From Gammaproteobacteria bacterium (lineage in GTDB: Bacteria; Pseudomonadota; Gammaproteobacteria; Pseudomonadales; Pseudohongiellaceae), in contig JAESUT010000139.1 of NCBI GenBank assembly GCA_016762995.1, positions 1-31,201 on the forward strand: a stretch of DNA of 31,201 nt, written 5' to 3'. Position 1 is the stretch's first letter. Every line of letters starts with the position of its first letter. This document shows, piece after piece, positions 18,929 through 29,290 of this stretch. The notes beneath the pieces were generated by a model that saw nothing but the letters and a program-made list of their open reading frames with translations, did not search any database and was not told the DNA's origin. The position numbers were made by a program, and so were the translations under genes.

Positions 18929-19243
18929 ATGTCTGACGTAGAAGTCTATATGATAGCCAATCTTGTAGTTGAGGATGCAAGTGAATACCGTAAGTATGAA
19001 AAGGGTTTCTTTCCACTATTGAAAAAATTTGGCGGCGAATTTGTGACCTTCGACGACAACCATGAAAATCTTGAAGGAGAGTCTCCATTAGAAGGTCGCG
19101 TCATTATATTCAAATTTCCCTCTGAAAAACTCGCCAAGCAATGGTACAACGATGACGAATATCAGGCTCTTTCTGAATTTCGCCGTGCTGGTACGAAGTT
19201 GAAGAGCATTACGCTGGTTCATGGGTTGCCGCCAAGGGCATAG
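18929..19243 (+). CDS. DUF1330 (dimeric alpha-beta barrel) protein
   Basis: This small cytosolic protein of 104 residues has the ferredoxin-like DUF1330 pattern: a first strand YMIANLVVED, then YRKYEKGFFPLLKKFGGEFVTFDD, then EGRVIIFKFPSEKLAKQWYNDDEYQ, and a C-terminal strand SITLVHG. The function of the family is unknown. The fold is shared with stress-responsive and heme-degrading barrels. The ATG has GGGAG 6-7 nt upstream. It follows the MAPEG gene in the same direction, but its own promoter cannot be excluded. Confidence 0.85.
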   Translation: MSDVEVYMIANLVVEDASEYRKYEKGFFPLLKKFGGEFVTFDDNHENLEGESPLEGRVIIFKFPSEKLAKQWYNDDEYQALSEFRRAGTKLKSITLVHGLPPRA

Positions 19244-19332
19244 AATTTTGTATTGTGCAGCTAATAAGCAGATTTTTATTTTCGGCTAGGCGTTTGTAAT
19301 TGAAGAATGGATATTACGCGGAGAACTGAGTC

Positions 19333-19662
19333 ATGATTCGATCGACTACACCAACATTGCAGGGTAAAGAAATTACCGACTATCTAGGCGTTGTAGTGGG
19401 TGAGGCAATTCTAGGAGCTAATATATTCAAGGATATATTCGGCGCCATACGCGATATAGTGGGCGGGCGTGCCGGCGCTTATGAAGAAGAGATGGGTCGT
19501 GCGCGGGACATTGCATTTATGGAATTGGAAGATGAGGCAAGGGCGTTGGGTGCCAATGCTATAGTTGGGATCGATTTGGACTACGAGGTTATCGGTTCTA
19601 AAGGAAGCATGATGATGGTAAGCGTCAGCGGTACGGCGGTGCGAATAAAAGAGATTGAATAA
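19333..19662 (+). CDS. YbjQ/UPF0145 family protein
   Basis: This 109-residue protein is of the YbjQ-like pentamer family, once annotated as heavy-metal binding. Conserved parts are visible: TTTPTL-like start ([11 protein letters not shown]), [18 protein letters not shown], the [42 protein letters not shown] core (about 45-86) and a C-terminal [11 protein letters not shown] strand. The biochemical role is not established. It is followed directly by a set of inverted repeats. Confidence 0.9.
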
Positions 19663-19738
19663 GTTGCACAAGGATGTGCAACCATTGCCCGTTAAGGGCA
19701 ATGCGAGTGTACAAAAGACAAGCAAAATGACATTTTGC
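19663..19738. repeat. Three successive perfect inverted repeats downstream of the YbjQ gene
   Basis: Hairpin 1 is GTTGCACA-AGGA-TGTGCAAC (19663-19682). Hairpin 2 begins at the next base, CATTGCCC-GTTAA-GGGCAATG (19683-19703). A third palindrome, GCAAAATG-A-CATTTTGC, follows at 19722-19738. All arms are 8 bp without mismatch. No T-run follows the first two, so they are not classical terminators. They could be RNA 3'-end stabilisers, protein-binding sites or remnants of a mobile element. Confidence 0.75.
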
Positions 19739-19870
19739 GCTAGCTTTTGGCGCATGACATACCGAAAAGCCATGGATGGTTTTTTAGTATTGAATAGATA
19801 GTCGATTGGCGAGAAGTTAGATGCTGTCCTAAACTAGGGAGAACCTACTGAGCAGTTAAGGATAACGCCA
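19704..19870 (+). promoter_or_regulatory. Upstream region of the acyltransferase-ACP-exporter cassette
   Basis: Besides the third palindrome, it holds a weak hairpin ending in six Ts (about 19762-19788), a possible terminator for the YbjQ gene. A weak promoter candidate follows: TTGGCG at 19806, 18 nt spacer, TAAACT at 19830. AAGGA at 19858-19862 is the ribosome site for the GTG at 19871. Confidence 0.25.
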
Positions 19871-20791
19871 GTGACTTATTCCGTATTTCAGCACGAGTAT
19901 CCGATTCTACATGAATCACTAAATCTCTTTATCGAGAAGTTACGTCCGAACGCAGAGCAAAAATTTCAATCGCTGACTCAGGCACTTTTTGAGAGGCCCA
20001 CTCTCAACGACGAAGATCAGATCGCTTACGCTTTCCGGCAGCCGGTCAAGATTGTCAACACCCTCCTCGCTAAGAACAGGCTTCACAATGGTCGGTTCGA
20101 GCAGAGGCGGAACAAAATCGAGCGGGCCTCACTCGTCCAACGCTACTGTAAAGATTTTGAAATACCACAGCGCGAAGATTATTTAGAGTTACTAAGAAAA
20201 GATGGGCGCTCACGTATCGTCGCCTCGTTCCACTGTGGTGACTTTTTGTACGGATCAGCTAGCCTATTCGGTCTCGAAAGCAACAAGCGAAGAAAATATG
20301 TCCTAAGCCTGAATAGGAATAGCATTGCTTGCTATTCAAATTTGGCTGCAGGCTTCGGTCACAAGGCTTCAGGACCGGAGTGTGAACTATTACTTTGTGA
20401 AACCGATTCGGCAGGGCTCTCCCAAATACTTCGGGCGGGGAATGCCTCATTACTTCTTTTCTGCGATGTCCCACCAGGGCTCAATCAAACTATCGAAGTG
20501 AATTTTCTTAACCGGCATGCTCGGTTCTCAATAGGTCCTGCAATCCTTGCTCTCGTTAACAGAGTGCCATTACTACCTCTCATCAACTACTCAGCTGGCA
20601 GTTCTAGTTACCTGAAGTTAGGTTCTCAGATTGAGCCAGAACTCTTTCCCTCGGAAACACTTCGAATGGGAGCGAAGAGGATTACGCAGGACTTGGTATC
20701 GTTCTTTGAGTCCGTATTTCTTGAGAATCCAGAGCAGTGGAGGTTTCTTCCGTTGTTGCCATGCTATTTCGCCAAGCCTAGAGAAGGGTAA
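19871..20791 (+). CDS. LpxL-superfamily (lysophospholipid-type) acyltransferase, atypical
   Basis: This 306-residue protein resembles the LABLAT/LpxL acyltransferase fold. Its core SRIVASFHCGDFLYG (about 116-130) corresponds to the active-site strand and His. The later LLLFCDVPPG and VNFLNRHARFSIGPAILALVNRVPLLPL parallel the LpxL segments DQD, VPFFG and the lipid-facing helix. Instead of HX4(D/E) it has HCGDFL, with Asp at +3, so catalysis may differ. It lacks the N-terminal membrane anchor of LpxL. The start is GTG with AAGGA 8 nt upstream. It is followed after 34 nt by an acyl carrier protein, the expected donor, and then by exporter genes. The acceptor is unknown, and a peptide cargo is inferred from context. 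Confidence 0.75.
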   Translation: MTYSVFQHEYPILHESLNLFIEKLRPNAEQKFQSLTQALFERPTLNDEDQIAYAFRQPVKIVNTLLAKNRLHNGRFEQRRNKIERASLVQRYCKDFEIPQREDYLELLRKDGRSRIVASFHCGDFLYGSASLFGLESNKRRKYVLSLNRNSIACYSNLAAGFGHKASGPECELLLCETDSAGLSQILRAGNASLLLFCDVPPGLNQTIEVNFLNRHARFSIGPAILALVNRVPLLPLINYSAGSSSYLKLGSQIEPELFPSETLRMGAKRITQDLVSFFESVFLENPEQWRFLPLLPCYFAKPREG

Positions 20792-20825
20792 ATTTGCCTG
20801 CGTTAGGCACTGATGGAATCGTAAA

Positions 20826-21107
20826 ATGTTACAGATCAAAAATGACAAAAACTCTGGTATGAGTTTCGAAGCAGATAAATATCCTGAGACATGTGTTATG
20901 AAATGCCTAGCAAAGCATTGCGATGGGAAGATATTAGATCAAAAAACAGCCTTGAGTGAACTTAACCTAGACTCACTCGATCTAATGGAAAGTCTCTTCG
21001 AATTAGAAAATTACTACGGGAAGACATTGAGTAATGCTGAGCTAGCATCACTAGCCACGGTTGAGGATGTAGTGAAGACCTTCTGCTCATCTACTACTCA
21101 GACATAA
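20826..21107 (+). CDS. Acyl carrier protein (phosphopantetheine-binding)
   Basis: This 93-residue protein has the ACP four-helix pattern. The attachment site is S50 in LNLDSLDLMESLFELENYYG, followed by the helix-III region ATVEDVVKTF. It is distinct from a housekeeping AcpP: it has an N-terminal extension of about 15 residues and several Cys, and it stands away from fab genes. It probably carries the acyl group used by the acyltransferase just upstream. The HlyD-type gene follows 10 nt downstream. Confidence 0.87.
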   Translation: MLQIKNDKNSGMSFEADKYPETCVMKCLAKHCDGKILDQKTALSELNLDSLDLMESLFELENYYGKTLSNAELASLATVEDVVKTFCSSTTQT

Positions 21108-21117
21108 GACGAATCTA

Positions 21118-22380
21118 ATGATGGCACAGAATTCAAACAATTTATTTCGTGAAAGGGCGGTCGCTCATAAAATAATGGGCCCGCCGTCCGCACCGGTAAT
21201 TACTTTCGTAAGTCATTTTAAGTTGCAACTAATTTTGTGGGTAGTCTTACTGCTTGTCGCTACATATCTACTAACTAAAACGACTTACAAGGAAACTGTA
21301 GCGGCTCTTGGAGTATTAGAGCCTATCCAAGATGTTCAGAAAATTGTCTCTCCCGTTGCGGCGAGAGTCGAGAAAATTCATGTTAGCCAGGGCGAAAGAG
21401 TCGAGAGAGGCGACATACTCGCATCGCTTTCCACTGGAATCTATAACGGACAGGGGATTTCTGTTGTTCAGGAAAACATACAGGCGCTGCAAATTGATAG
21501 AGAACTGTTGGTTAAGAAGTTCGATGTCCAGCAAATGGTGGAGCGACAGTCTAGGCATTGGAGCAGGCTGGCAGCCCTGAATGTTCAGAATAGTAAGCTA
21601 AGCCTTGAAGAGGAAGCGCAGTTGTTGGTAGCTCGAACACAGTTGAGCGATCAGAACTTGCAGGCAGTTTCGACGCTGCTGGAGTCGGGAAATAGCTCGG
21701 CTCGAGAATTTGATCAACAGCATCAGGTACACCTAGAGCTGCTCGGTCGTAGACAGGCGCTTTCACAAAGGCTGTTGCAATACGATTATGAATTAAATTC
21801 TCTTAACAACACCGAGCAACTCGCGAAGCTCGATTCCGAACAGGCCAGCCTGCAGGTTCAACGAGAGTTGCAGGGAATTGACCAGGAGATAACGAGACTA
21901 AGTAACCAAGCGTTATTCACGGTTATTGCCGAGGGGCCGGGTATTGTAGCGGCAGTGGGATTAGTCAGGGGAAAATCGGTATTGCCTAATCAGCCGCTAT
22001 TCTTTATTAACCCACTCAAGACCGAGCTACGGGCCACACTTTACGTGTCTGCGGCTGTTCAGGCAAAGCTAGTAGTGGGGCAGTCTGTTTTGCTTCGATA
22101 CGATGCATTCGATTTTAGGTTGTACGGCAGACAAGAGGCTACGGTGGTTGCCATTGGAAAGGCTAGGCTGGACCCGAGGGAAACTACCTTGCCGATCATC
22201 GGTATTAACGAGCCAGTGTTTAAGGTAATCGCCGAGTTGCATGAATCTACGATACAGGGAGATTCGCTGTATAAGTTACAGAGCGGAACGACGTTCATGG
22301 CCGATTTTGTCCTCTGGGAAATGTCACTTATGCAGTTCATCTTCAGGCCAATCCTCGGCCTGCAGGGTAAGGTGACATGA
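21118..22380 (+). CDS. HlyD-family periplasmic adaptor (membrane fusion protein)
   Basis: This 420-residue adaptor would link the ABC exporter to a TolC-type outer-membrane channel. It has a short cytosolic N-terminus, one membrane helix (about 36-54), a lipoyl half-motif VSPVAARVEKIHVSQGERVERGDILA (about 78-104), a long alpha-helical hairpin (about 115-260) and the second lipoyl half plus beta-barrel (VIAEGPGIVAAVGLVRGKSV and onward). The layout resembles the adaptors of colicin V/RaxA-type bacteriocin exporters. It overlaps the ABC gene by 4 nt (ATGA), which implies translational coupling. No outer-membrane channel gene is nearby. Confidence 0.9.
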   Translation: MMAQNSNNLFRERAVAHKIMGPPSAPVITFVSHFKLQLILWVVLLLVATYLLTKTTYKETVAALGVLEPIQDVQKIVSPVAARVEKIHVSQGERVERGDILASLSTGIYNGQGISVVQENIQALQIDRELLVKKFDVQQMVERQSRHWSRLAALNVQNSKLSLEEEAQLLVARTQLSDQNLQAVSTLLESGNSSAREFDQQHQVHLELLGRRQALSQRLLQYDYELNSLNNTEQLAKLDSEQASLQVQRELQGIDQEITRLSNQALFTVIAEGPGIVAAVGLVRGKSVLPNQPLFFINPLKTELRATLYVSAAVQAKLVVGQSVLLRYDAFDFRLYGRQEATVVAIGKARLDPRETTLPIIGINEPVFKVIAELHESTIQGDSLYKLQSGTTFMADFVLWEMSLMQFIFRPILGLQGKVT

Positions 22381-24494
22381 TCGATATTTTTCAGTCTCGT
22401 AATGCATTACCTATGATATTCCAGACCGAAATAGCGGAATGCGGCTTAGCCTGTTTGGCCATGGTAGCCAACTATCATGGTAAGTTTTCAGATATACGTA
22501 CTTTGCGAGAAAGTCTTTGTATGCCCCCTGGTGGAGCATCTGTAAAACACTTACTGCAAGCCGCTCTACAACTCGATCTACGAGGGAGACCTCTTAAACT
22601 CGATCTTAGTGATATTGCGCAGCTGACTTTGCCTGTAATTCTGCATTGGGACACAGACCACTTCGTTGTACTTAAGAAGGTCACTAGGAAGTCATTCGTT
22701 ATCCACGACCCTGCGATGGGTATACGAAAATACAGTCTACCTGAGCTGGATCGTCACTTCACCGGAATTGCAATCGAGTTGTCTCCAACTGTTTCGTTCA
22801 CGCGAGAAAGGCAGGGCAAAGAATACTCTTTGAAAGAGCTTTTTAAGGTAACACCTAGCTTTCGCCGGGCTATCAGGCAGGTCTTCTTTCTCTCACTCTT
22901 GCTACAGGTGCTGTCGCTCGTCTTCCCGCTTTATCTACAGCTGGTGATTGACCAAGGACTCAGCAAGGGAGACATGGACATTATTTTTCTCGTCGCTCTG
23001 CTTTTTTCGCTAGTGATTCTAGCGAAGGCAAGTGTTGCTTATTTCAGAGGAGTGGTGCTACTACAATTCTCCAGTCAACTGGGTTTTCAAATGATAAGTA
23101 ATACCTTCGCGCACCTGCTTAGGCTACCCCTATCGTACTTTGAGAAAAGAGAGATGGGGGATATTGTTTCCCGGTTTTCTTCACTCGATAATATCAAACA
23201 ACTCGTCACCCAGGAGATGATAACGGTAATAGTAGACGGTTTGTTTTCTTTGCTAACCTTTTTCTTGTTATTTCTCTACAGCCCGACCCTCGCATTTGTA
23301 GCGCTTCTTTTCGTAGTCGCATTGTCGTTGATCCGTCTTCTAGCTATACCTAGGGAAAAATCGTATCGACAGGAAGTGTTACAAAGCGGAGCTAAGCAAC
23401 AGACTAGATTCATGGAAAATATTCGATGTATAGCGGTAACCAAGAGTTATGGCATAGAGTCTGAACGCCTGTTGGAGTGGCAGAACTACTATGCTTATTT
23501 TATACGTTCAAGCTATAGACTTGGACATCTGCAACTGAGCCTAACTACTTTGCACAGTCTTCTATTCGGCATAGACCATGTTGTGACGATCTACCTTGGA
23601 TCTGCTGCAATATTCAGTGGCCAGCTGACCATAGGCCAATTGATGAGTTTCATTTTCCTAAAGCAAAATTTTTCTGGATCGGTAGCGGCAATGCTTCCTA
23701 AACTAGCGGAAATAAAGCTCTTAAGGCTGGAGCTCGATAGGGTATCCGATATAGTCTTTGAAGAACCGGAACTGAATTTTCAAGACACCAACCTCCTCAA
23801 GCTTGGAATTTCTGGCGCCATCGAGGCAGAGGGCCTTGGCTTTAGCTATTCCACGGCACAGGCCGAATTATTTGGGAATCTTAACTTCAGCATCGTAGCA
23901 GGTGAATTCTGCGCGATCTCCGGGTATTCAGGATGCGGTAAATCGACACTCCTAAAATTACTGCTTTGCTTAGCTGCGCCTTCAACGGGCGTAATTCGTG
24001 TTGATGGACATACGATTCCTGAACTGGGAGTGAGCCATTATCGGTCACAAGTTGTAGCGGTACTCCACGGAGACGGCTTGTTGTCTGGATCTCTTGCTTA
24101 CAACGTGCACCTAGAGACGGAGCCGTTAAATCTAAAGCGACTAGAAGCGGCGTGCCGAATATGTTGCATCTTTGATGATATAAGCCAGCTTCCTATGGGG
24201 TTTAACACACAGGTAGGTGAGATGGGAGTGGCCCTTTCTGCAGGCCAGGTTCAACGGGTTCTACTTGCTAGGGCGCTCTACCGACATCCAAAAATAGTAG
24301 TACTGGATGAGGCGCTATCTCACCTAAGTACGAATGTGGCGCGTAAGATCATCGCGGGCATTCGAGATTCTAAGACTACTCTAATTCTTGTAACACATAA
24401 TCCGGATCTGATTAGCCTCGCTGACTATTCGCTCGTATTGGGCGAGCAGAATTCGGGGCAAGCGGTGCCTAGGGAGGTAAGACGAGATATATGA
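22377..24494 (+). CDS. Peptidase C39-containing ABC exporter (double-glycine leader processing)
   Basis: This 705-residue half-transporter both cleaves a leader peptide and exports the cargo. The N-terminal C39 domain (about 5-130) has a complete triad C22 (AECGLAC), H95 (DHFVVL) and D111 (HDPAMG), with the same C-H-D spacing as I recall for the colicin V exporter CvaB. Six membrane helices lie in about 165-440. The ATPase domain shows Walker A G516-YSGCGKS-523, signature L620-SAGQ (second residue pair differs from LSGGQ), Walker B with D644-E645, and H-loop LVTHN. The D-loop is unusual (SHLS rather than SALD). It would pair with the upstream HlyD adaptor and an unlinked TolC. Confidence 0.92.
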   Translation: MIDIFQSRNALPMIFQTEIAECGLACLAMVANYHGKFSDIRTLRESLCMPPGGASVKHLLQAALQLDLRGRPLKLDLSDIAQLTLPVILHWDTDHFVVLKKVTRKSFVIHDPAMGIRKYSLPELDRHFTGIAIELSPTVSFTRERQGKEYSLKELFKVTPSFRRAIRQVFFLSLLLQVLSLVFPLYLQLVIDQGLSKGDMDIIFLVALLFSLVILAKASVAYFRGVVLLQFSSQLGFQMISNTFAHLLRLPLSYFEKREMGDIVSRFSSLDNIKQLVTQEMITVIVDGLFSLLTFFLLFLYSPTLAFVALLFVVALSLIRLLAIPREKSYRQEVLQSGAKQQTRFMENIRCIAVTKSYGIESERLLEWQNYYAYFIRSSYRLGHLQLSLTTLHSLLFGIDHVVTIYLGSAAIFSGQLTIGQLMSFIFLKQNFSGSVAAMLPKLAEIKLLRLELDRVSDIVFEEPELNFQDTNLLKLGISGAIEAEGLGFSYSTAQAELFGNLNFSIVAGEFCAISGYSGCGKSTLLKLLLCLAAPSTGVIRVDGHTIPELGVSHYRSQVVAVLHGDGLLSGSLAYNVHLETEPLNLKRLEAACRICCIFDDISQLPMGFNTQVGEMGVALSAGQVQRVLLARALYRHPKIVVLDEALSHLSTNVARKIIAGIRDSKTTLILVTHNPDLISLADYSLVLGEQNSGQAVPREVRRDI

Positions 24495-24520
24495 GAAGAG
24501 AAACGGAAAGACAGCGATTG

Positions 24521-24528
24521 AAGGGAGG
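24521..24528 (+). promoter_or_regulatory. Strong ribosome binding site of the RAYT-like gene
   Basis: AAGGGAGG lies 8 nt before the ATG at 24537. A strong site argues that this transposase-like gene is still translated. Confidence 0.5.
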
Positions 24529-24536
24529 CGCAGAGA

Positions 24537-25220
24537 ATGATGGCCACTAGAAGCCTAATTCCCGGGAAGACCTATTTCGCTGTAATAAAACAGAGAACAT
24601 TCGGTACTGGATTTTTCGATGATGCTTGCAAAGATTTCTATCTACGCCGTCTCCTGAATTGTCAGAATGCCTTCCAAGTACAGCTCCATGCTTATCTTCT
24701 TATGAAGAAAGACATATTTCTGATAGTTACGTCGTTGACGCCATTGGGTTTCGATTCATTCGTTAGGTTTCTTAACGCTAGTTATAGCAGGTACTATTTG
24801 ATTCGCTTTGCACGTGGTGTCCTAGCTTGGCAGAATGAACCACTCGTTTGTCGGCTACCAGGCGACAAACTCGTTCTTGATTGCCAAAAATTTGTCGAGC
24901 GTTATGTGCTTAACTTTGGTATCGAGAATCATCCAGGTGAGTATGGCTATTCTAGCTACTGTGCGAACGCATTTACGCGCAGTCCATGTTTCTTGCAGCG
25001 CCATCGAGCAGTTCGACAATTCATAAATATTGAAGCCAATGGGCTTCAACGATATCGAGATTTTGTCGCCACACCATTCTGTAAAGAGTATGAGCGATTC
25101 TTACAGAGCCGGCTGCTCTCCGGGCGAGCGCTGTTGCAGCAGAAATCGTCATTTAAGCTCGAGAACAATAGGGCTTTGACCGAAATAGAGAAAAGCGGCA
25201 CAATAGCTACCATTGCATGA
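24537..25220 (+). CDS. RAYT/Y1-transposase-like protein with degenerate HUH site
   Basis: This 227-residue protein has the sequence skeleton of REP-associated tyrosine transposases: GKTYFAVIKQR at the start, FFDDACKDFYLRRLL, H51-AYLLM, then SFVRFLNASYSRYYL, and ERY123VLNFGIENHPGEYGYSSY near 121-142. In active proteins the segment after HAYxLM reads NHVH (metal-binding HUH). Here it is K58-D59-I60-F61, so both His are gone, while a Tyr at the nucleophile region (Y123) seems kept. It is intact, has a strong ribosome site and lies 42 nt after the exporter gene. That suggests domestication or reuse rather than a decaying insertion. Function is unknown: DNA/RNA binding, regulation, or a role in cargo handling are all possible. 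Confidence 0.75.
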   Translation: MMATRSLIPGKTYFAVIKQRTFGTGFFDDACKDFYLRRLLNCQNAFQVQLHAYLLMKKDIFLIVTSLTPLGFDSFVRFLNASYSRYYLIRFARGVLAWQNEPLVCRLPGDKLVLDCQKFVERYVLNFGIENHPGEYGYSSYCANAFTRSPCFLQRHRAVRQFINIEANGLQRYRDFVATPFCKEYERFLQSRLLSGRALLQQKSSFKLENNRALTEIEKSGTIATIA

Positions 25221-25336
25221 CGGAATAGGGATTGTAGAGGGAATTGGTAAGGCGATACAGTCTCGCAGGGAAGGTGCCATGTTAACTTTCATCTGACTGC
25301 GAAAACTGACCACGGCGTCAGCTAGATCGAGCGGAA
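25221..25336. other. Gap between the RAYT-like gene and the membrane protein gene
   Basis: The 116 nt were read in all forward frames for a small peptide gene with a double-glycine leader. None was found; only frames of a few codons occur. No clear promoter or terminator is visible. Confidence 0.5.
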
Positions 25337-26314
25337 ATGCGTATGCTACATAAATCAAATTTTTACCCTTTCTATGACCCATATAGCGATGGTGGCGGGC
25401 TAGGCTATGGAAGTAAGCTAGTCATTTCACTCGGCTTTGGTGCTTGCTATGCATGGCTTCAATATTATTCTCTGCCGGATAAGACGGTTTTCTTTAGCGA
25501 GAATTGCTGGAGACTCGCTCTAATAATCTCAACGTCGTTTTTTGCACTTTATGTTGCTACGGATGTTTTTCGAAACAATCTTAATATGATACGCGAAATC
25601 GAAGATAAGTATGCCGGTAGCCTAAAGGTTGTTGATGAAGTGATGAGCGACAAATGGCTGCTTCTTGCGGGGTTTGCGTTTGGAACGGTAAACACTACAA
25701 TAGGACACGTTTTAGGCGTGCCATCGGTTTTTTTCGAATCAACTCCTTCCTTAGTGATGATCTATTTTGGATTTTTCTTAGGCGGATTTACCAGCGGAAT
25801 GGGCCTACTAGCTATCGGCGCTGTGATAATGCTCTATCTAAAATTCGCTCCCAGCCTTCAGTACACATTGGACCCTAACAATCCTGATGGTAACGGTGGC
25901 ATTAAGAAGCTCGGAGATTCACTCTGGTTCTTCGGCGGTCTAATTGGAGTCATTGGGTTTTTGATCAGCATGTATATGTTCGGAGTTTCTTGGACTTATA
26001 TGCATAAGCCGTATGTCCAATTTATTTTTCTGTTTTGGGTCTCTCTACCTTATGTTTTGGCAGTATCTATAGTGTTGATACCTGGCCTCGCTGTAAGGCG
26101 TCAAGTTTCTTACTATAAGTCATACAAGTCTGGCCAGCTTAAACAGGAGAAGGTAAAGCTGTATTCGAGTTATAAACAGTTCAAACCTAGGGAAGATGAA
26201 GAGATTATCTCGGAAAAGAAAGAACTTGGAGAAAAATTAGAACGAATTCAAAGTGAACTAGAAACGCTCAAGAAGATGCGAAATTCGCATATCGATGGAA
26301 AGAACTCGGACTAA
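25337..26314 (+). CDS. Unrecognised multi-pass membrane protein with C-terminal coiled coil
   Basis: I do not recognise a family. The 325 residues contain about six hydrophobic segments (near 26-45, 58-77, 107-127, 137-165, 195-215 and 226-252). A charged cytosolic tail (258-325) follows, with a heptad-like EEIISEKKELGEKLERIQSE region suggesting a coiled coil. Between helices 4 and 5 is a polar loop with DPNNPDGNGG. ATGs at 25337 and 25343 are both possible starts. It is the last plus-strand gene of the accessory cassette, 116 nt after the RAYT-like gene, and converges with gcvP 27 nt downstream. It might be an immunity or accessory factor of the exporter, or unrelated. Confidence 0.7.
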   Translation: MRMLHKSNFYPFYDPYSDGGGLGYGSKLVISLGFGACYAWLQYYSLPDKTVFFSENCWRLALIISTSFFALYVATDVFRNNLNMIREIEDKYAGSLKVVDEVMSDKWLLLAGFAFGTVNTTIGHVLGVPSVFFESTPSLVMIYFGFFLGGFTSGMGLLAIGAVIMLYLKFAPSLQYTLDPNNPDGNGGIKKLGDSLWFFGGLIGVIGFLISMYMFGVSWTYMHKPYVQFIFLFWVSLPYVLAVSIVLIPGLAVRRQVSYYKSYKSGQLKQEKVKLYSSYKQFKPREDEEIISEKKELGEKLERIQSELETLKKMRNSHIDGKNSD

Positions 26315-26341
26315 CCGAGCCCCACCACCTCTGCCTACTGA

Positions 26342-29290
26342 CTATTCATAGCTCTCGATGCTTGGGCAGGCACAGAATAAATTCCTATCCCCATATACAT
26401 TGTCGATTCGGTTTACACTTGGCCAGTACTTGTTCGAAGCAACTGCGTCCTCCGGTTGATTAGGGTAGGCGGCCTGCATTTTACTGTAAGGCCTGTCCCA
26501 GCTCTCATCCATCATGTCGGCGAGGGTGTGGGGTGCATTTTTTAGCGGATTATTCTCCGCGTCGATGTTACCTGACTCAACGTCTGCGATTTCCTTGCGA
26601 ATTTGGATCAGTGCGTCGATGAATCTATCAAGCTCCGCTTTCGACTCGCTCTCGGTCGGCTCAATCATCAACGTTCCAGCTACCGGGAAAGACATAGTTG
26701 GTGCGTGGAAACCAAAATCCATAAGTCGCTTGGCGACATCTTCCTCGCTAATGCCCGAGCTGAGCTTGAGCGGGCGTAGATCGATAATACATTCATGAGC
26801 CACCATGCCGTTGCGTCCGGTATAGAGCACTGGGTAGTGCTCTGCCAACCTAACGGCGATGTAGTTCGCACTGAGTATTGCGACCTGAGTCGCCTTCAAT
26901 AGTCCCTCTGCGCCCATCATGGCGATGTACATCCAAGAAATTGGCAATATTCCGGAGCTGCCCCAAGGTGCGGCAGAGACCGCGCTGTTACTAGCCTCTG
27001 GGCCATCCAGTTTAATCAGGGAATGGTTTGCTAGGTAGGGCACGAGGTGCTTCTTTACTCCGATGGGCCCCATGCCTGGGCCGCCGCCACCATGTGGAAT
27101 GCAAAATGTTTTGTGTAGGTTTACGTGAGAGACATCAGCTCCGATATCAGCGGGCTTCGCTACTCCAACCTGCGCATTGAGATTGGCGCCGTCCATATAG
27201 ACCTGCCCGCCATGATCATGAACTATCTGGCAGATTTCTTTTACGGCTTCCTCGTACACTCCGTGTGTGGAAGGATAGGTAATCATTAGTGCGGCGAGGC
27301 TATCGATATTTTCTTTAGCCTTACTGCGCAGATCTTCAACATCGATGTTGCCATTGTCGTCGCAGGCAACGACTACAACCTTCATGCCAATCATCTGCGC
27401 GCTGGCAGGATTCGTGCCGTGTGCCGAGCTAGGTATTAGGCATACATCCCTAGCCCCCTCGCCTGTGCTTGCAAGGTACTTTTTGATGGCCAGCAGGCCA
27501 GCGTATTCTCCCTGTGCACCCGAGTTTGGTTGCATACTCACGGCATCGAATCCGGTAATTACCTCTAACATTTTTTCCAGGCCAGAGATCATCTGTTGGC
27601 AGCCTGCCATCTGTTCTATTGGTGTGAACGGGTGTGGCTTTGCAAACTCAGGCCAACTAATTGGCGCCATCTCGGCAGCGGCGTTAAGTTTCATCGTGCA
27701 GGAACCCAATGCGATCATCGCATGGGTAAGTGAAATATCTTTGTCTTCGAGCTTCTTCAAATAACGCATCATTTCAGTTTCACTGTGATAGTTATTGAAG
27801 TTGGGATGTTGTAAGTACGCGCTTTGGCGAATCAGGCTATCTGGGATAACTGCTGCCTTTTCGCCACTTACGATTTGTGCGTCAATGTCGGCGGTTGAAA
27901 GTTTCTGCGCGGCATCGCCGAGAATGATCTGCCAAATACTTTCAACATCTTCACTGGAGGAGCACTCGTCCAGGCTTATGCCGATTGACTTGTCTTGTTC
28001 GGCTCTATCGATACGCAAGTTTATCTTGCTCGTTTTCGCACGCTCCAATATAGCACCAAGATTGTCAGCACCTATTTTAAGGGTAAGGGTATCGAAGAAG
28101 TTTTCGTTAACTATTTCAATGCCTGCATTTTGTAATCCTGCGGCCAAAATAGAAGTTAACCGATGAATTCGCTGAGCAATATTTTTAAGACCTTTGGGCC
28201 CGTGATACATCGCATACAGGGCGGAAATATTTGCTAACAGTACCTGCGCGGTACAAATATTGCTGTTCGCCTTCTCGCGGCGTATATGTTGCTCACGAGT
28301 CTGTAGCGCCATACGAAATGCTTGGCGCCCGCGCGTGTCTATTGAGACGCCGATGATGCGGCCGGGAACGGCGCGCTTGTATTCTTCTTTAGTAGCGAAG
28401 TAGGCGGCATGCGGGCCGCCGTACCCCATGGGTACGCCGAAGCGCTGCGTAGTGCCGGTAACGACATCTGCCCCCATTTCACCTGGTGGTTTTAGTAGTG
28501 TTAGGCTCATTAGGTCGGCCGCGACTATCGCGATCGCTTTGTGCTCATGCAATTGGCTGATAATCTCAGTGAGGTCTCGAGCCTCGCCGGTTGCCGCAGG
28601 GTACTGAAAAATAGCACCAAACAATTCGGACAGATCGGCATCCTTGATATCACCTATGACTAGCTCGAAGCCGAAACATTCTGCTCGAGTCTTTATGACA
28701 TCGATTGTCTGCGGGAAACAATGCTGATCAACGAAAAATTTATTTGCCTTTCGGTTTTTGCTCACGCGTTTCGCGAACGACATAGCTTCCGCAGCGGCAG
28801 TAGCCTCATCAAGCAAGGATGCATTCGCCAAATCCATTGCCGTTAGATCTAGAGTCATCTGTTGAAAATTGAGGAGACACTCTAAGCGGCCCTGTGAAAT
28901 CTCAGGCTGGTAGGGCGTATATGCTGTATACCAACCGGGGTTTTCCAATACGTTGCGTAAGATCACATGTGGCGTAAAGGTGTCATAGTAGCCAAGCCCA
29001 ATAAATGATTTTGCTGTGCTGTTTTGCTCGGCGATTTCTTTTAGCTTCGCCAGTGCAGCATTTTCAGTAAGCGAATCATCTAACTCTAGAGCGCCTTTAA
29101 AGAGAATCGCTTCGGGAACTGTGTTGTTGATAAGGTCATCTAGCGATTCCAAATTTAGCACTTGCAGCATCTGTTCTATTTGAGCTTTGCTCGGGCCAAT
29201 GTGACGATCGATAAATTCGCCGCTGTATTGTAGAGTCTTGAGCGACGGAGCGGAATTGTTCTTAGTCGCCGGAGTGGATTGTGTTTGCAT
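26342..29290 (-). CDS. gcvP: Glycine dehydrogenase (decarboxylating), P-protein
   Basis: This is the PLP-dependent decarboxylase of the glycine cleavage system, which passes the aminomethyl group to the lipoamide of GcvH. Both halves are present: the N-terminal part with [17 protein letters not shown] and [13 protein letters not shown], and the C-terminal part with the PLP lysine K727 in [16 protein letters not shown]. An ATG at 29311 is in frame, but the ATG at 29290 has AAGGA 5 nt upstream and gives 982 residues, still a little longer than the usual 950-960 because of a polar N-terminal tail. It is the third gene of gcvT-gcvH-gcvP, 115 nt after gcvH. Confidence 0.97.

Follow-up and report, generated by a model that had tools for sequence, protein, structure and literature searches.

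The 31,201-nt contig JAESUT010000139.1 of a Pseudohongiellaceae bacterium (the window; C99 among the 234 contigs of a 3.05-Mb assembly, 92% complete) carries at 19871 to 26314 six open reading frames (ORFs), all on the plus strand, which an earlier note made from the sequence alone had read as a cassette for making and exporting a lipidated peptide or protein (Table 1). The gaps of 34, 10, -4 and 42 nt between the first five genes are exactly as given there, and 116 nt separate the RAYT-like gene from the gene for the membrane protein. Pfam confirmed the combination behind this reading, namely an acyl donor (acyl carrier protein [ACP]; PF00550), an acyltransferase (AT; PF03279), a leader-cleaving exporter (Peptidase_C39 plus ABC domains), and its adaptor (HlyD_3). 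Proteins 5 (RAYT-like) and 6 (membrane) had no Pfam or NCBIfam match above cut-off.

Table 1. Features of the cassette region, in window coordinates
Feature	Position	Strand	Basis
Conserved non-coding leader, ribosome-binding site before GTG	19795..19870	+	Alignment of the window with L035 and L037 to L041
LPLAT-type acyltransferase (AT), 306 aa, GTG start, His121/Asp199	19871..20791	+	PF03279
Stand-alone acyl carrier protein (ACP), 93 aa, LDSLD Ser site	20826..21107	+	PF00550, E 8.7e-7
HlyD-type membrane fusion protein, 420 aa	21118..22380	+	HlyD_3
Peptidase (C39)-containing ABC exporter, 705 aa	22377..24494	+	PF03412, ABC_membrane, ABC_tran
RAYT-derived protein without HUH motif, 227 aa	24537..25220	+	HxH in 0/31 cassette copies
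Membrane protein, four hydrophobic segments, 325 aa, probable accessory	25337..26314	+	Hydropathy

The exporter is indeed of the leader-cleaving kind. Its Peptidase_C39 match has an E value of 1.8e-34, and the C39 Cys, His, and Asp residues were present in all 42 rows covering them in an alignment of 47 rows, window included. The nearest solved chain is 4ry2, a peptidase-containing bacteriocin transporter. Scores against the NHLP bacteriocin exporter family TIGR03796 (425.5 bits; cut-off, 853.3) and the HlyB/RTX family TIGR01846 (355.8 bits; cut-off, 725.55) stayed below the cut-offs, as did that of the HlyD protein against TIGR01843 (79 bits). The cassette exporter is the single C39 match in the window's genome (92% complete assembly), which also encodes two TolC-type proteins scoring over cut-off. 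A defence system was considered and rejected, PADLOC having returned only ABC/ATPase-type matches of the exporter.

For comparison, 137 genomes of the family were searched for AT, and 40 loci around it were inspected; homologues carry database names such as Pseudohongiellaceae, Pseudohongiella, and SAR86 cluster bacterium. AT matches were found in 59 genomes, of which G060 and G061 hold remnants, so the tally used was 57 AT+ versus 80 other genomes. Genera bear working labels (g1 to g8; g1 is the window's genus), and p-values are given without phylogeny correction for genomes that overlap in ancestry.

The gene set recurs, as expected of the system that the earlier note had proposed. Leaving the window aside, all 34 g1 loci have HlyD after AT, and 30 of them continue with the RAYT-like gene. 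Of the four others, three run into a contig edge, their ABC-RAYT part lying on a separate contig of that genome, and one (L065) has lost its distal genes. The gene set is more than a chance association. Its locus often lies between waaA/pepP and gcvP, which argues that it is inherited with the chromosome, and decayed cassettes also occur (L115, L133, and L134).

Another 22 cassette loci, several of them cut by contig ends, come from other genera. In the sister genera g6 and g7, a divergent AurF-like oxygenase (PF11583) is followed by an AMP-binding ligase (PF00501), ACP, AT, HlyD, and ABC. A run of oxygenase plus ligase-ACP-AT-HlyD-ABC, a possible modified-acyl pathway, was seen at L069 to L073, L129, L130, L135, L138, and L139. 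The window's genome holds no close counterpart of the sister-genus ligase, the best match having 27% identity to the G034 ligase. Farther away, in another family of the order, two loci (L120 and L121) have the gene order C39-ABC, AT, HlyD. A sample of 390 genomes of the order gave 16 AT matches in other families, and among the nine mapped wider only L120 and L121 pair C39 with AT. Over 369 genomes of the class, the AT profile added two new matches, with no C39 gene within about 1.5 kb. Scanning contigs with the window's AT returned five loci, all in metagenome-assembled genomes, and scanning with the L120 acyltransferase returned no match. Elsewhere in the order, weak AT matches (L122 to L128) stood in other gene contexts, which we take to be aryl polyene clusters, some near an ACP match and with no C39-exporter match in the stretch.

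A search for the double-glycine (GG) leader pattern found nothing in the window, and weak pattern matches in three g1 loci (L045, L051, and L053) were judged to be due to chance. Since the cassette contains no peptide, its cargo was sought elsewhere, and GG-leader, class II microcin-like precursors, overlooked by the earlier note, were found across the family. The window's genome has a tandem pair on contig C24, with a small membrane ORF after each; one of them gave matches below cut-off to PF10439 (E = 6e-4) and MccV (E = 0.013). In sister genera, the L129 cassette is immediately followed by two GG-leader peptides, the first of which passes TIGR03949 (22.3 versus 21.5 bits), and GG-leader peptides adjoin ABC at L139 and L140. 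A 60-residue GG-leader ORF precedes the C39-ABC, AT, and HlyD genes at L120 and L121.

TIGR03949 matched 36 of the 137 family genomes at E ≤ 0.1, 23 of them over cut-off, versus three and none, respectively, of 14 controls; the window's genome gave no match to it. A leader-core profile (A3), built from 27 leaders plus 15 core residues with the C-terminus excluded, matched 100 of the 137 genomes at E ≤ 1, the window's own at 1e-5. At E ≤ 0.01, precursors were present in 45 of 57 AT+ versus 26 of 80 other genomes (p = 1e-7; a hand count among the matches listed, kinship ignored). One G085 peptide used as a query found nothing in the window's genome. A putative immunity neighbour, scored as an ORF with at least two hydrophobic spans within 150 nt, accompanied 45 of the 91 precursors that scored 20 bits or more and had sufficient flanking sequence, versus 33 of 600 random positions. 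We infer that these precursors use this exporter, and leader cleavage and export of microcin-like peptides by the cassette is highly probable. Of the earlier claim that a lipidated peptide is made and exported, the part on peptide export thus gained from the kind of exporter and from GG-leader precursors in the genome and beside related cassettes, and lipidation stays a prediction. In G096, near a second C39 exporter (L241, contig C94), three small GG-leader peptides stand in a row, none ending in Ser, and the genomes G134, G135, and G108 have at least five C39 matches each plus several GG-leader precursors.

AT matched PF03279 over residues 182 to 293 (E = 5.7e-6; 26.2 bits versus a gathering score of 22.3), and its closest solved relative is PatA (E = 7e-9, over roughly the final 90 domain residues). 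In AT (ACYLTRANSFERASE), H121 and D199 were invariant in 31 of 31 rows, and the acid of the HX4D/E motif was absent from all 31, its position being taken by L, I, V, T, or F. Both the His and the Asp were retained by the L120 enzyme in the profile alignment. By its position, D199 would fill the role of PatA E200. VexE, as described in the accessible part of PMC9597891, is an ACP-dependent LPLAT in which Tyr replaces the HX4D/E acid and which acylates a hydroxyl; loss of its His makes it inactive, and loss of the equivalent of PatA E200 leaves it much weakened. LPLAT enzymes acylate hydroxyls, and a Ser side chain therefore fits as an acceptor.

The C-termini of the precursors point to such an acceptor. 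Precursors were picked by E value and exporter status from listings that show no tails, and the counts cover part of the precursor places among the matches listed by the leader-core profile. At 16 bits or more, our main count, the last residue of the mature peptide is Ser in 63 of 84 precursors from AT+ genomes, in 1 of 12 from AT-lacking genomes with a C39 match (AT- C39+), and in 10 of 16 from genomes with neither (AT- C39-); for AT+ versus AT- C39+, p was 1.4e-5, kinship ignored. The corresponding counts were 63/85, 2/19, and 10/18 at 14 bits and 50/61, 1/5, and 7/9 at 24 bits. In a first precursor set, 60 of 77 AT+ tails ended in Ser, and with near-copies removed 44 of 58 did, versus 1 of 11 (AT- C39+) and 10 of 15 (AT- C39-). 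AT+ genomes without a second C39 match (32 genomes) had 40 Ser tails among 50, those with more than one match 23 among 34, and at least one Ser tail was found in 39 of the 45 AT+ genomes read. Across the 77 AT+ precursors, Ser occurred 60 times at position -1, 16 times at -2, 9 times at -3, and 3 times at -4. All six codons occur among the 63 terminal Ser residues (TCC 21, TCT 15, TCG 11, AGT 7, AGC 5, and TCA 4). The L120 and L121 peptides, which stand outside these counts, also end in Ser.

The AT-lacking exporters were inspected at 20 loci from genomes with a C39 match. Thirteen are HlyD-ABC pairs with no AT, ACP, or ligase match. As for the other seven, those of G032 and G033 are akin to the AT cassette, two are cut by a contig edge so that they begin with ABC, a further two contain ABC genes in pairs, and the queries used found no ABC in G078, which was scored as lacking AT and holds cassette pieces. 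The G032 tails are FFAH and DNGS, and the G033 peptide ends in FLAN. At the G033 locus (L297), an AMP-ligase is directly followed by HlyD-ABC, AT and ACP being absent from an otherwise similar cassette.

Taken together, these data lead us to favour, with some reserve, the reading that the cassette is a class II microcin-like maturation and export module whose AT esterifies peptides from acyl-ACP, most likely at a C-terminal Ser. Precursors with a leader such as MRELTLDEIEQVSGG would come from genes at other places in the genome, many of which adjoin a gene for a small membrane protein, probably the immunity protein. AT would esterify a precursor hydroxyl in the cytoplasm, most likely that of the C-terminal Ser, with a fatty acyl group supplied by the cassette ACP or by the general acyl-ACP pool. 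The C39 domain would then cleave after Gly-Gly, and the ABC protein, HlyD, and a TolC would export the lipid-tailed peptide. In g6 and g7, the pair of AMP-ligase and AurF-like oxygenase probably serves to load the acyl chain onto ACP and to modify it there. Acylation of the peptide is probable, to judge from the membership of AT and ACP in the cassette, the conserved catalytic residues of AT, and the C-terminal Ser pattern; for the terminal Ser as the acylation site, the same sequence evidence gives about even chances.

Several findings weigh against this reading. The sister genus g7 is AT+, and none of its five tails ends in Ser (tails CSM, GSH, and CR); non-Ser tails also make up 8 of 50 in g1 and 4 of 21 in g6. 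Ten of the 16 precursors from AT- C39- genomes still end in Ser; these genomes, mostly of the window's genus, may have lost the cassette, and one of the six non-Ser rows (G091) is cut by a contig end. In G032, an AT-less genome whose contig begins within HlyD, one precursor next to ABC has a Ser tail. For 34 of the 84 AT+ precursors, the genome has at least two C39 matches. At 5 of the 34 g1 loci there is no space for ACP, and at L052, besides these, no ACP was recognised. On the exporter tree (midpoint root), the AT label falls into clumps, three changes being needed, so independent AT contrasts are few. Finally, the window cassette itself holds no precursor, and precursors outside it are therefore linked to the exporter by leader type and exclusion.

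Some of these points would be accommodated if the exporter handled microcin-like peptides while AT and ACP acylated another partner, such as a glycolipid, the exporter, or the membrane protein, for example in self-protection or envelope anchoring; the peptide would then be unmodified and its terminal Ser a lineage trait. The LPLATs of known activity (LpxL, LpxM, PatA, and VexE) acylate lipids or sugars (PMC9597891, accessible part), and the Ser tails of the AT- C39- genomes and their absence from g7 fit this possibility as well. However, hydropathy finds no N-terminal membrane span in AT, AT adjoins a C39 exporter not just in this genus but also in its sister genera and at the distant L120 and L121, some loci of these last two groups having precursors next to the operon, and AT-less exporters, mostly plain HlyD-C39, accompany other tails. 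We consider this alternative rather unlikely. Less likely still is that AT acylates the peptide at another Ser or Thr, or at a Lys, the Ser tail serving recognition by the exporter or the immunity protein. The 21 of 84 AT+ precursors without a terminal Ser would be explained in this way, as would g7, in which Ser stands at -2 in four of five peptides, but the strong concentration of Ser at -1 and the use of all six codons argue for the C-terminus.

Conservation of the waaA, pepP, and gcvP flanks around the cassette in many g1 genomes would suit a merely syntenic block, in which slow chromosome rearrangement keeps unrelated genes together. This is improbable and was already disfavoured, since ACP-AT-HlyD-ABC stands in another gene context in sister genera and ABC-AT-HlyD recurs at L120 and L121. 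That the cassette activates a large, RTX-style protein in the manner of HlyC and secretes it by the type I route is scarcely credible: the exporter does match TIGR01846 (HlyB) with 356 bits, but this is far under the 725.6-bit cut-off, its C39 domain retains the catalytic Cys, and there is no HlyC domain among the cassette proteins.

The two distal genes had been cast as dedicated partners of the export system. Protein 5 owes its RAYT label, which held, entirely to its relatives: a profile of the cassette protein scores eight canonical RAYTs of the family at 113 to 147 bits. These eight, two of them from the window's genome, keep HUH and Tyr, and canonical RAYTs match PF01797 (L108, E = 7e-14). 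The cassette copies have lost the HUH motif throughout (Table 1), and their catalytic Tyr position, F in the window, reads F 11, Y 9, M 8, A 2, and L 1 over 31 rows. Solved structures searched with the RAYT profile or a canonical RAYT gave no relevant match. A strictly dedicated partnership found no support: no RAYT match was found in the 22 loci from other genera, several of these cut by contig ends, and at L103 to L106 the HUH-less gene stands alone and without stops between pepP and gcvP in four genomes lacking any AT or C39 match. This solitary persistence at a fixed locus argues that the gene is domesticated and that its role need not be export. In another genus (L100), a related RAYT gene between pepP and gcvP has the second His only. 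A survey of RAYTs set aside proteins without the core motifs as suggested to be non-functional (PMC6006769, accessible part). The RAYT-derived protein has lost its nuclease site and is probably a regulator that binds nucleic acid and was retained once domesticated.

The membrane protein occurs in 38 of the 137 family genomes, all of this genus, and is near full length in 22 of 24 genomes with AT versus 2 of 14 without it, some of the short matches lying at contig ends. Since it is limited to this genus, is lacking in some cassettes, and is mostly fragmentary in the absence of AT, we regard it as a probable accessory. At the other end of the cassette, about 75 nt before the AT start are conserved in six relatives, sequence farther upstream aligning poorly. 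This stretch is a possible promoter or regulatory leader. An Rfam search of 19200 to 26500, the AT leader region included, gave no match, and the counts of predicted promoters and terminators lay inside the shuffled range.

As a whole, the locus tentatively suggests a new class of lipid-tailed microcins, in which one vertically inherited module of ACP-dependent LPLAT and C39 exporter would O-acylate the C-terminal Ser of many unrelated peptides from dispersed precursor-immunity pairs, with a domesticated RAYT as regulator; this wider proposal has somewhat less than even odds. If true, an acyltransferase of the lipid A/phosphatidylinositol mannoside type was co-opted to add lipid to ribosomal peptides, by a route new for such peptides, and class II microcins extend beyond the Enterobacteriaceae to a marine lineage. 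The C-terminal Ser offers a testable one-residue rule for finding them, and the cassette offers a clear example of a RAYT protein that has lost its nuclease motif and keeps a fixed position.

Known systems resemble single parts of this proposal. Protein 5 shares its sequence family with the RAYT/TnpA-REP transposases and differs from them in its lost HUH, variable Tyr, and fixed chromosomal place. PatA, LpxM/LpxL, and VexE belong to the family of the cassette AT and share its catalytic His and distal acidic residue, and LpxL, LpxM, and VexE use an ACP donor (PMC9597891, accessible part), as proposed here. The cassette AT is unlike all four in its predicted peptide acceptor; the HX4D/E acid is absent, as in VexE. 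Fatty-acylated ribosomally synthesized and posttranslationally modified peptides (RiPPs; selidamides, nostolysamides, lipolanthines, and goadvionins) are likewise ribosomal peptides with lipid chains. Selidamides, lipolanthines, and goadvionins are made by GNAT or polyketide synthase routes. Nostolysamides, according to partial sources, differ in bearing their acyl groups on Lys side chains. In the literature searched by title and the start of the abstract, there was no LPLAT route to acylated RiPPs and no LPLAT with a peptide acceptor, and acylated bacteriocins or microcins did not appear by name in the literature searched, which most subscription papers lie outside.

The closest parallels are the class II microcins, 10 of which, all from Enterobacteriaceae, were described by 2022 according to the accessible part of a review (PMC10233263), from which the shared traits named below are also taken. 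Their systems consist of a GG precursor, immunity protein, C39 exporter, membrane fusion protein, and TolC. The class IIa microcins, including microcin V, share this set with the system described here, in which the immunity protein is a putative one, and a precursor of the window's own genome resembles MccV, weakly (under cut-off); unlike the microcin V system, the cassette adds AT, ACP, and the RAYT-derived and membrane proteins. The class IIb (siderophore) microcins are likewise chromosomal, with a GG leader, a C39 exporter plus membrane fusion protein, and an adjacent immunity gene, the last a putative one in the present case. A search confined to the cassette proteins recognised no siderophore-attachment genes. 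In class IIb, the C-terminal Ser is modified, and several precursors can share a single exporter and modification set, both of which are features of the present proposal. Unlike class IIb, the system described here would use an ACP-linked LPLAT as its modifying enzyme, its precursors are dispersed, a RAYT-derived gene stands in the operon, and, in place of a Ser/Gly-rich stretch, the tails end in one or two Ser residues.

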